From Metallosphaera yellowstonensis MK1 (GTDB lineage Archaea; Thermoproteota; Thermoprotei_A; Sulfolobales; Sulfolobaceae): a stretch of 43,923 nucleotides of DNA. The position numbers were made by a program, and so were the translations under genes. The notes beneath the pieces were generated by a model. The model ran no database searches. It was not told where the DNA came from and was given only the letters and a program-made list of their open reading frames with translations. Where the stretch lies: contig NZ_JH597755.1 of the NCBI RefSeq assembly GCF_000243315.1, positions 50,113 through 94,035 on the forward strand, in the 5' to 3' direction. The first letter of the stretch is position 1, and each line of letters opens with the position of its first letter. Below are positions 9,485-37,684 of this stretch, one piece after another.

Positions 9485-10087
9485 TTGTATGTGAGTTTAA
9501 TTACAAGGCTGAAACCTAAGGAAGTGTGCCAACGCTTAGGAATATCATATCGCACACTACAGAGCTATGTTAAGAAAGGATACATAAAACCAGTAATATT
9601 ACAAAGCGGGAAGTGGAGGTTCAGAGAAGAGGACGTAGAAAAGTTAATAGGTATTGTTAGGAAGAGGAAAGTGATACTTTACGCAAGAGTATCATCAAAT
9701 ACACAAAAAGACGATTTAGTAAACCAAGTGAAGTACCTAGAGGAGAACGTTAAAGAATACGACCAAGTGATAACAGACGTGGGATCTTCATTGAACATGA
9801 AGAGAAAAGGATTCCTCAAGTTGTTAAGGATGATACTAAACAACGAAGTATCAAAAGTAGTTGTAGCCTACCCAGACAGACTAGTAAGGTTCGGCTTCGA
9901 GATAATTGAAGAAGTGTGCAAATCACACAACTGTGAGATAGTGGTGCTAAACAAGGAGGGCAAAACCCCAGAACAAGAACTGATAGAAGACTTAATCCCT
10001 ACTAGTCTCCTTTAGCGGAAAACTCTACGGAATGAGAAGTCATAAATACGAAAAGGTGAAGAAATGTGTCGAAGAAATTAAGGCTTA
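9485..10087 (+). pseudogene. tnpA: IS607-family TnpA serine recombinase, frameshifted near its C-terminus
   Basis: Opens at TTG 9485 or, more likely, GTG 9491. An HTH (KEVCQRLGISYRTLQSYVKK, residues 12-31) is followed by FREEDVEKLI and the serine-recombinase domain: VILYARVSSNTQKDDLVNQV with the catalytic Ser, then DVGSSLNMKRKGFLKLLRM and VVVAYPDRLVRFGFEIIEEV (Arg residues of the active site). The open frame stops at 10013-10015 after EDLIPTSLL. In the next frame FSGKLYGMRSHKYEKVKKC continues to a stop at 10085-10087, which is the conserved end of this family. So a single event between about 9996 and 10011 has removed ~25 C-terminal residues. A TATA-like GTTTTTATAC lies at 9472-9481. Confidence 0.8.
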
Positions 10088-11250
10088 AATCGTTTCAGCC
10101 AGAGGAGGAATACGTCTACCTAACTTACTCCTTGAAGAATGATAAGAAGGAGGAGAGCAAGATATTACTAGAGAACTATAAACACCTACTACAGAAAGCT
10201 TTAGACTGGTTATGGGAGAGGACTAAGATAGAGAAAAAAGAAACGAAGAAAGGTAAGAAAGTCAAAATAACCTTGCCTAAGAAAAAGGAAGTGTACAAGG
10301 TATTGAGAGACGAGCTTGAGAAGATTAACGTTTTAGCTTCCCACTACGTGGACAAAGCAATAAATGACGCTTACTCAGTGTTGAGGAGTTGGAAGAGGAG
10401 GGCCGAGAAGGGGCAAGCATCATTGAGGAAACCAACACTGAGGAAGGTTTACGTTAGGATAAAGTCTACTCTGAGGAAGGTTGATGGCGAAGACGTTAGG
10501 ATTACAGTAAGACCTTATGAATATTTGACCTTCTCTTGGTCTCACACTTGGTTCTCTAGAAGGGTTGAAGGACTTGAATTGGGTGAGCCCATAATTAAGG
10601 AGGATAAGGTGTATTTGCCATTTCGTTACAGATTACCTTGGTTTACTCCCCTAGATTTCCTAGCAATTGATAGCAACTTGTACACATTAGACGCTTATGA
10701 TGGTGATAAGTTTGTTACATTTTCCTTGAAGGAGTTGTATAGTCTAAAATTCGGCATGGAGTTGAAGAGGGGTAGAATACAGTCTTTTACTTCAAAGCAC
10801 GGTAGGAAGGGGAAGGAGTTGTTAAGGAAATATTCCCATAGAGAGAGGAACCGTGTGTCGGATTATATCCACAAGTTCGTGAATAAGTTGCTGGAGATGT
10901 ATCCTCTCACTATGTTTGCTGTTGAAAAGTTGAATAAGCAGTCCTTGTTCCGAGACGCTGATGACAAGCTGTCTAAGAAGATTTCAAGGACTGTATGGAG
11001 GACAATTCACCGTGTGCTTAAGTACAAGGCTCCCTTATACGGTTCTTTCGTTAAGGAGGTGAACCCACACCTTACATCTAAGTCCTGCCCCAGATGTGGA
11101 TGGGTTTCCCGAAAGGTCGGCAGGACTTTCAGGTGTGAGAGGTGTGGGTTCACTCTGGATAGGCAACTCAACGCATCCCTCAACATATACCTCAAGATGT
11201 GCGGGTTTCCCCACCTCTTTCTCACTCCCACTGGGAGTAGGTGGGTTTAG
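10066..11250 (+). CDS. tnpB: TnpB RNA-guided endonuclease of the IS607 element
   Basis: A 394-residue TnpB with GTG start overlapping the original tnpA end. N-terminal basic region (to about residue 190) with long Lys/Arg runs for RNA/DNA binding; RuvC-like domain with DFLAIDSNLYTLDAYDG (first catalytic Asp, D202), MFAVEKLNKQSLF (Glu, E287) and LDRQLNASLNIY (third Asp, D365). A zinc ribbon sits between the last two: C341-P-R-C344 and C357-E-R-C360. All catalytic and zinc residues are present, so it is probably active. TnpB proteins cut DNA guided by an omega-RNA from the transposon right end, here the structured segment just downstream. Note the first motif is AIDSN rather than the common GIDxG. 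Confidence 0.9.
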   Translation: MSKKLRLKSFQPEEEYVYLTYSLKNDKKEESKILLENYKHLLQKALDWLWERTKIEKKETKKGKKVKITLPKKKEVYKVLRDELEKINVLASHYVDKAINDAYSVLRSWKRRAEKGQASLRKPTLRKVYVRIKSTLRKVDGEDVRITVRPYEYLTFSWSHTWFSRRVEGLELGEPIIKEDKVYLPFRYRLPWFTPLDFLAIDSNLYTLDAYDGDKFVTFSLKELYSLKFGMELKRGRIQSFTSKHGRKGKELLRKYSHRERNRVSDYIHKFVNKLLEMYPLTMFAVEKLNKQSLFRDADDKLSKKISRTVWRTIHRVLKYKAPLYGSFVKEVNPHLTSKSCPRCGWVSRKVGRTFRCERCGFTLDRQLNASLNIYLKMCGFPHLFLTPTGSRWV

Positions 11251-35733: not shown

Positions 35734-35880
35734 TGGAGTATATGGAACACTTGATTATAAAACGGCAATCGTTAGATTTCACCTTGAGTATAGGGCGATA
35801 CTTAAGTTTAAGGGAACTCCAATAATCGCTGCATGAAGATAGTACACCTTAATAGGGAATCAAGGGAAGGGGTTTGGGCC

Positions 35881-36080
35881 TCATAGGATTTCATATTGAT
35901 ATCAACCCTCAGCCTCTTGGGCTCCACCGGAGTCGCGAAGCATTGCTCCGATCATCCTCCTCCGCCCCATTAGCGGGATAACCCCACCCATCATAGTCAC
36001 CTGATGGGGAAACCTGCACATCCAGTGTGATCGCCGGCCACCTCTTCGGTATACCGCACCACATCCGGTGCCGGTCTTAT
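35881..36080 (-). mobile_element. Right-end remnant of a TnpB element (second copy of the 11.2-kb tail)
   Basis: On the minus strand it reads TGTGCAGGTTTCCCCATCAG, then TTATCCCGCTAATGGGGCGG, AGGAGGATGATCGGAGCAATG and GCCCAAGAGGCTGAGGGTTG, closely following 11200-11330. The hairpin arms are CGGAGC and GCTTCG (35936-35950 on this strand). The tnpB coding part is reduced to a short tail. The insertion lies in the otherwise empty gap 35734-36162. Confidence 0.75.
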
Positions 36081-36162
36081 CTAAATTACAATACATATGA
36101 TGTAATATAAACTTTACAGTTTATCCGAAACTTTTGGCAACGGCTCTTCTCCACGCTGGCGT

Positions 36163-36594
36163 TCAAAGGTTCAGAATCCTCTTTAGGATCTCCTCAGGTA
36201 TATTCACTGCTTTCCATATCTTGGGATTTATCGCCACTTGATCTACGTATCCTGTAGTGGTCACTTCCCCCTCTTTCAATATCTGAAATTGAAACCTAAT
36301 GACCTTCTCTGACAACCTCTGAGGAGATATGGTTACGGTGATCACGTCTCCTACTCTCAGGGGTCTCTTATACTCAGCGTGTGTCTCAACTATTACGAAC
36401 CACAGCTCATCGTTAACGTTAGGGTAGGGTATTCCGACCTTATCCTTCATGAATCTCTCAATGGTATTGGTGAAGAACCTATAATAGGACGCATAATGTG
36501 CTATTCCTTGGGCGTCAGTGTCATATATCCTGACTACGTCCTTGAACACGAACTCTAAGGTCAAGGCCAGTCCACCGTTAGTCCCCTGGGCCAA
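36163..36594 (-). CDS. Acyl-CoA thioesterase, 4HBT/YbgC hotdog family
   Basis: A 143-residue hotdog-fold thioesterase. VRIYDTDAQGIAHYASYYRF (residues 21-40) contains the catalytic-loop pattern D-T-D-A-x-G-x-x-H-x-x-Y; FVIVETHAEYKRPLRVGDVI and TVTISPQRLSEKVIRFQFQI are the typical strands; GYVDQVAINPKIWKAVNIPE the end. It would hydrolyse short acyl- or aryl-CoA thioesters. The start is a TTG at 36594, overlapping the encapsulin stop by 17 nt; a TTG at codon 12 is possible. Whichever start is right, it is translationally coupled to the encapsulin gene, so the pairing is probably real, although no thioesterase cargo of a capsid is known to me. Confidence 0.8.
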   Translation of the reverse strand: MAQGTNGGLALTLEFVFKDVVRIYDTDAQGIAHYASYYRFFTNTIERFMKDKVGIPYPNVNDELWFVIVETHAEYKRPLRVGDVITVTISPQRLSEKVIRFQFQILKEGEVTTTGYVDQVAINPKIWKAVNIPEEILKRILNL

Positions 36595-37654
36595 TCAGTA
36601 CTACAGCTCGACTGTCTAGGACATAAGGTGCCAATCTTCCCCAAATCATGTAAACCTCGTTTGTACCCTCCCTTCCTAAGTAGTCCACCGTGACTGGAGT
36701 AGACTCCAAGATGAAGAATCCTGGCTTGGCGGTGACTAGGATATGGTCTTTTACCTGCTCAGATATCACCAGGTTGACTGTAGATTTGATTAACTCTATC
36801 TCCAAGGTACCCGTCTTGTCCACAACCCTGTGAAGCATCGAATAGGTTCCCGGAGGAACAACTGCATAAATTCCCTTTGAGTAACCAGAGGAGTAGAGAG
36901 TCTCAATCGCCTTAACGATATCTAAGGCTATGTTGCCTGGCACTGTCCAGTCAGTCACCCTCTGTTTAGTGGACCTTTTAGTGGGGGACAAAGGGTGTTC
37001 CGTCAAGAGCAAAGAGTCCTCTTTCCTAGCGTAACGTGCTCCTGCACTAACTAATGCGTTTGATGCACTCACGGGATCAGCGTCAAACCTCACCTTAACC
37101 GTCTCCGTTAACCTCGGGAGAGGATATAATGTTGAGTTCTCCCCTTGCGTTATTCCTTCTTTTTCTTCAATGAGGTCATATACGGTGACAGAGTTCTTCG
37201 GGTAATTGACTACGTTTCCGATCTCCCTAATTCTCCTTGATGAAAGGCCTTCATTGAGATATCTCATTACCTGGTCACTCACTTCTCCATTTCTCCCTGG
37301 GTTACCCCCTTCACTCTTGGGTTCACTCCGTTCTTTAACTTCCAGTGGAATGGGAAAAGTCTCCTGGTCGCCTATGAGCTTAGAGGCCTCGTTCCATCCC
37401 TTCACTATGTAATTAAATTCCTCCTTGTTCAAAAGGTAGAGCAATCTTAGGAACTCGCCGAAATGTGTTATCTCTTCTCTGGCGATATCATCGTGGACTT
37501 TCTTTAACTTCTCGTCAGAGAACAACTTACCCTGCTGAAGGTAATAATTTATTGCGTCCAATTCGGCCATCAGAGCCCCCCTTAGGGCTCTGATCATCTC
37601 GTCCTTGTCTAAGCTCTCCTTTCTAAGGAGAGCTGTTGGATCAGAAGAGAACAT
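36578..37654 (-). CDS. Ferritin-like protein fused to encapsulin (HK97-fold) shell protein
   Basis: A 358-residue fusion. Residues 15-100 form a ferritin-like domain: MIRALRGALMAELDAINYYL and DDIAREEITHFGEFLRLLYL carry the ligands E31, E61 and H64 of the E...E-x-x-H type expected of encapsulated ferritin. Residues 105-130 (ERSEPKSEGGNPGRNGEVSD) are a hydrophilic linker. Residues ~135-358 match encapsulin: VNYPKNSVTVYDLIEEKEG, NIALDIVKAIETLYSSGYSK, YAVVPPGTYSMLHRV, DHILVTAKPGFFILESTPVT and RLAPYVLDSRAVVLIG. The same order occurs in the Pyrococcus furiosus virus-like particle protein (PF1192). It probably self-assembles into a shell with ferritin domains inside, storing or detoxifying iron. Leaderless ATG with CTTTTAATA ~26 nt upstream; followed by an overlapping thioesterase gene. 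Confidence 0.9.
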   Translation of the reverse strand: MFSSDPTALLRKESLDKDEMIRALRGALMAELDAINYYLQQGKLFSDEKLKKVHDDIAREEITHFGEFLRLLYLLNKEEFNYIVKGWNEASKLIGDQETFPIPLEVKERSEPKSEGGNPGRNGEVSDQVMRYLNEGLSSRRIREIGNVVNYPKNSVTVYDLIEEKEGITQGENSTLYPLPRLTETVKVRFDADPVSASNALVSAGARYARKEDSLLLTEHPLSPTKRSTKQRVTDWTVPGNIALDIVKAIETLYSSGYSKGIYAVVPPGTYSMLHRVVDKTGTLEIELIKSTVNLVISEQVKDHILVTAKPGFFILESTPVTVDYLGREGTNEVYMIWGRLAPYVLDSRAVVLIGPGD

Positions 37655-37671: not shown

Positions 37672-37684
37672 GTGTATTAAAAGG
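37672..37684 (-). promoter_or_regulatory. TATA box of the encapsulin-thioesterase operon
   Basis: On the minus strand AACCTTTTAATAC is centred ~26 nt before the encapsulin ATG at 37654, fitting a leaderless transcript. Confidence 0.55.

Follow-up and report, generated by a model that had tools for sequence, protein, structure and literature searches.

Metallosphaera yellowstonensis MK1 carries a gene in which a ferritin-like (Flp) domain is fused to an encapsulin shell, followed at once by a gene for a hotdog thioesterase, and this locus raises two questions: whether the fusion protein forms an iron-handling nanocompartment, and whether the thioesterase has any part in it. We have addressed both in a stretch of 43,923 nucleotides of the genome (the window). 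A preliminary description of the same DNA had proposed an iron-storage or redox nanocompartment, with the thioesterase as a second cargo, a partner enzyme or a mere neighbour. The whole is, with high probability, best explained by a Flp-fusion nanocompartment that oxidises and stores iron, next to an independent thioesterase; what we observed directly in its favour is the domain order, the ligands, the predicted fold, the homology and the lack of conservation of the gene pair.

Architecture of the fusion protein

Both open reading frames reported in the preliminary description are present on the minus strand at its coordinates, and the host does belong to the order Sulfolobales, as it had claimed. 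The larger one (36578..37654, minus strand, ATG start) encodes a Flp-fusion family 1 encapsulin of 358 amino acids, according to the reading frame, the Pfam, NCBIfam and PDB searches and the structural model. In this single frame an EncFtn-like ferritin domain (approximately residues 1-97) precedes a Linocin_M18/encapsulin domain (approximately residues 125-353), so that the fusion claimed earlier is confirmed in both its parts by family and PDB searches. On the DNA, family and PDB matches together with the alignment place the ferritin-like domain (residues 1-97) at 37364..37654, the alignment and the model place a linker of variable length and low confidence (about residues 98-126) at 37277..37363, and Pfam, profile search, model and fold search place the HK97-fold shell domain (about residues 127-358, plus the stop codon) at 36578..37276, all on the minus strand. 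Pfam Linocin_M18 matched residues 125-337 above the Pfam cutoff (E 1e-18), and Pfam EncFtn-like matched below it. The NCBIfam matches, EncB and ferrit_encaps at the N-terminus and the family 1 encapsulin shell at the C-terminus, were all below the curated cutoffs; because the family 1 shell equivalog scored 35 bits against a cutoff of 100 bits, we regard the protein as a divergent family 1 member.

The PDB searches agree with this assignment. Used as a single sequence, the protein matched 2E0Z, the virus-like particle of Pyrococcus furiosus, over residues 1-353 (E 1.6e-22), and also 5N5E, the excised ferritin domain of the same organism. A profile of 20 Sulfolobales relatives matched 2E0Z end to end (E 6.1e-81) and the 5N5E Flp crystal structure (E 5.9e-36), and it reached solved bacterial encapsulins as well. 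The AlphaFold model, built on an alignment of 42 fusion proteins, had a mean pLDDT of 89 and a pTM of 0.67, the latter for a monomer whose Flp domain has no defined position with respect to the shell. It begins with two paired long helices (17-44 and 48-75) and a third helix (77-94), continues with a low-confidence linker near residues 95-125 and ends in a mixed alpha/beta shell domain. Its top structural match in the PDB was 2E0Z chain A (E 1.7e-18, TM 0.83 on target), followed by many encapsulins; with this best match the model shows the HK97 topology that had been set as a test of the shell assignment.

Since HK97 is also a viral fold, and viral capsid proteins do match structurally, the shell protein could be the capsid protein of an integrated HK97-type virus, the more so as phage-like genes have been identified near the encapsulin gene of Sulfolobus solfataricus (PMC7355545). 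We consider a provirus extremely improbable here. The sequence homology is to family 1 encapsulins, and the viral contigs contained short Flp-like matches alone, with no fusion. Furthermore, the neighbours that we could identify are transporters, a GntR regulator and an enolase-superfamily enzyme, none of them terminase-, portal- or prohead protease-like, and no packaging or virion genes lie beside the shell gene at this locus. A provirus origin of the window copy was rejected on these grounds.

The di-iron site and the proposed function

The ligands E31, E61 and H64 proposed in the preliminary description are intact. They align with Glu32, Glu62 and His65 of Rhodospirillum rubrum EncFtn, which bind two irons between two chains (PMC5012862), and they provide the Glu/Glu/His set of an EncFtn ferroxidase. 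The segment D56-IAR-E60-E61-I-T63-H64 (DIAREEITH) fits the motif DXXXEEXA(T)H of archaeal fusions (PMC11202242), and the three ligands are kept in all of the aligned fusions but one. A full-length fusion from a congener (L017, G182:C1:1053768-1054793) has a degenerate ferritin site and an intact shell domain; relative to the window protein it carries A30T, D33E, Y38H, E61K and H64Q. This loss of two of the three di-iron ligands in a congener, together with the patchy presence of the gene in the genus, provides a natural experiment on the need for the ferritin part.

Assembly, internal location, ferroxidase activity and iron storage are taken here from the relatives of the protein. By analogy with them, the shell domain would assemble into a particle of icosahedral form, which is T=3 in P. 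furiosus, and this assembly would hold the fused N-terminal Flp domain inside. The Flp domains would pair, E31, E61 and H64 of two chains forming di-iron ferroxidase sites at which Fe(II) entering via the shell pores could be oxidised, and the ferric product would be stored in the lumen. For an aerobic thermoacidophile, such storage may serve as an iron buffer and keep oxidative damage low. The homology to the P. furiosus particle, the HK97 fold of the model and the di-iron ligands thus lend good support, by analogy, to the iron-storage or redox nanocompartment proposed earlier. A division of labour between ferroxidase and shell has been described (PMC5012862).

It could be argued that the compartment serves mainly in redox chemistry or the removal of oxidants and is not an iron store, as the same di-iron chemistry could act chiefly in oxidant protection and the host, probably an aerobic organism that oxidises iron in acid iron mats, could plausibly need protection from Fe(II) together with oxidant. 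However, in EncFtn relatives ferroxidase activity has been measured and iron storage depends on the shell (PMC5012862, PMC11202242). We find this alternative rather unlikely, although both functions overlap and are not distinguishable from sequence.

Start of the thioesterase gene and expression signals

The shorter reading frame encodes a 4HBT/YbgC-like hotdog protein, whose closest PDB entry is 2GF6 (E 1.9e-59). Read from its first in-frame TTG (36594), it spans 36163-36594 on the minus strand and encodes 143 amino acids, and on this reading it overlaps the encapsulin gene by 17 nt, as the preliminary description had it. The homologues, however, align from about query residue 9-14, and three congeners (L034, L033 and L035) have an ATG exactly at codon 11 (MTHEFVFE, MTHEFVFE and MTIEFVFE), which in the window is the TTG at 36564 (MTLEFVFK). 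A putative ribosome-binding motif, GGTGG (36572..36576, minus strand), lies directly behind the encapsulin TAA and 7 nt before this TTG; in archaea, GGTG pairs with a CACC in the tail of the 16S rRNA. From the homologue starts near codon 11 and the GGTGG, we infer that the two genes are probably separate, with a gap of 13 nt between them: the thioesterase (36163..36564, minus strand) probably starts at TTG 36564, 13 nt after the encapsulin stop and with its own ribosome-binding site, and the 17-nt overlap is probably an artefact of taking the first start codon. Upstream of the encapsulin ATG, a TATA-like element (TTTTAATA, 37675..37682, minus strand) is found at 21-28 nt, a spacing that is similar in front of the closest homologues. 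This spacing suggests that the element could act as a promoter for a nearly leaderless encapsulin mRNA. A transcript shared by encapsulin and thioesterase, read from sequence motifs alone, is plausible.

On the other side of the thioesterase gene, a gap of about 430 nt (35734-36162), partly GC-rich, separates it from the next transporter gene. An RNA gene in this gap was considered and dropped, as there was no Rfam match.

Linkage of the two genes

We compared the linkage across Sulfolobaceae genomes and searched for the pair beyond the window genome. Of the other Sulfolobaceae genomes, 12 carry both genes, in every case unlinked, at distances of 36, 62, 133, 258, 313, 316, 332, 400, 531, 844, 878 and 1183 kb. 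Eight genomes have the thioesterase without the encapsulin (G180, G181, G184, G185, G186, G195, G203 and G205) and three the encapsulin without the thioesterase (G200, G201 and G202), and the comparison of neighbourhoods showed no common flanks on either side. Apart from the window genome, the pair was found only in one metagenome contig, G197:C27 (JAFMDM010000131.1), whose 4617 bases differ from the window by 8 mismatches over the whole length (99.8% identity). This contig makes the gene pair real in a second assembly and is silent on its conservation between species. Horizontal transfer to the other genus to which G197 is assigned was considered, but misbinning of DNA from the same species is the more likely explanation, because the contig is 99.8% identical throughout, the MAG consists of 190 contigs and the congener G196 does not have the gene. 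In L108 a thioesterase-like gene of only 27% identity lies on the other strand, some 1 kb away from the fusion, and we put this down to chance.

The thioesterase could still have been recruited to the nanocompartment in this lineage, as a second cargo or as a partner enzyme. The two genes share a strand, the gap of about 13 nt holds a ribosome-binding motif and has no space for a separate promoter, the close spacing suggests co-transcription, and the arrangement is present in two assemblies. But the pair is unlinked in every one of the 12 genomes and each gene is kept elsewhere without the other; moreover, the thioesterase aligns end to end with its unlinked homologues, with no targeting peptide, loading tag or added terminal segment, so that neither a targeting extension nor a conserved linkage marks it as cargo. 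No thioesterase is mentioned in the main text of a large encapsulin survey (PMC8346489), and fusion encapsulins need no separately loaded cargo. We judge such a recruitment very improbable. Hardly more can be said for a thioesterase that co-transcription and coupled translation have put under the control of the encapsulin and that cooperates with the compartment in one lineage, for instance by dealing with acyl-CoA or with lipid damage under iron stress; this too seems to us most improbable. Absence of the pair from related genomes was what the preliminary description had itself named as evidence against a partnership, and none of the other Sulfolobaceae species examined has the pair. We regard a functional partnership as unlikely, and among the three options of that description the linkage data support the mere neighbour. 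The thioesterase would be an independent hotdog-fold enzyme, probably separate from the compartment and with no role in the particle, which became a neighbour in M. yellowstonensis and probably shares the transcript.

The adjacency is due to chance or is lineage-specific. The window genome (G000) has 2,817,452 bases in 21 contigs and the window a GC content of 47.5%, and for M. yellowstonensis MK1 a genome of 2.82 Mb with 47.7% GC and 283 transposon sequences, the highest number in the genus, has been reported (PMC7325606). This transposon load fits rearrangement as the origin of the pair, and in such a transposon-rich genome adjacency can pass for partnership. Elsewhere in the window, two adjacent genes (9485-10015 and 10066-11250) resemble, by eye, an IS607-type recombinase and TnpB; they are 88-90% identical to a pair that lies some 4 kb away from the encapsulin gene of G187 (L060:12741-14580), which points to recent mobility.

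Distribution and evolution of the fusion

A match was found in 124 of the 214 genomes of the order that were searched, a count made up of fusions and of matches to Flp alone; relatives occur across archaeal groups. The tree of 23 fusions places the window protein with those of genera g9 and g11 (support 94/98) and the protein of the congener G182 with genus g6 (99/96). The fusion gene is missing from four other congeners and is thus patchy in the genus. As the two copies of the same genus are not sisters and these congeners do not have the gene, transfer or differential loss seems likely.

Other observations concern the wider family. Two Flp-fusion encapsulins in Thermoplasmata MAGs (L073 and L074) branch with Sulfolobaceae proteins in a midpoint-rooted tree, which suggests transfer between archaeal phyla or misbinning. 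Within genus g6, the fusion gene is broken in G193 (L016/L068) and G189 (L013/L069): in one genome about 1.2 kb of DNA splits it near residue 57, and the other has six in-frame stops, which suggests decay of the gene in some members of the genus. Stand-alone Flp proteins of about 93-139 amino acids (L091, L092, L117 and L121-L150), 39-57% identical to the window Flp domain, occur in many MAGs of archaea and in a few of bacteria; the DNA fetched around their genes, where some contigs end close to the gene, contained no shell gene.

Comparison with known systems

For the thioesterase, the nearest structure, PDB 2GF6 (listed as 'conserved hypothetical protein'), is a close homologue that aligns over residues 12-140 without gaps; the window gene differs in its TTG start and in its position behind an encapsulin gene. 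The Flp-fusion encapsulins of the Sulfolobaceae have the same architecture as the window protein and are mostly 37-48% identical to it, but none of them lies beside the thioesterase gene in these genomes; the particle of S. solfataricus to which PMC8346489 refers belongs to this group. With P. furiosus PF1192 (2E0Z; Flp domain 5N5E), the comparison called for in the preliminary description revealed the same domain order, full-length homology, the Flp ligands and the same predicted shell fold, although the two are only 18% identical in the structural alignment and the linker is different. Flp-fusion encapsulins have been described as a class that is wholly archaeal and mostly crenarchaeal, with T=3 particles containing internal Flp cited for P. 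furiosus and S. solfataricus (PMC8346489), and the class is also treated in PMC11202242. With its N-terminal Flp fusion, its HK97 family 1-type shell and its archaeal host, the window protein is a further, divergent member of this published class, added from a probable iron oxidiser of acid mats in which iron buffering is a real physiological question.
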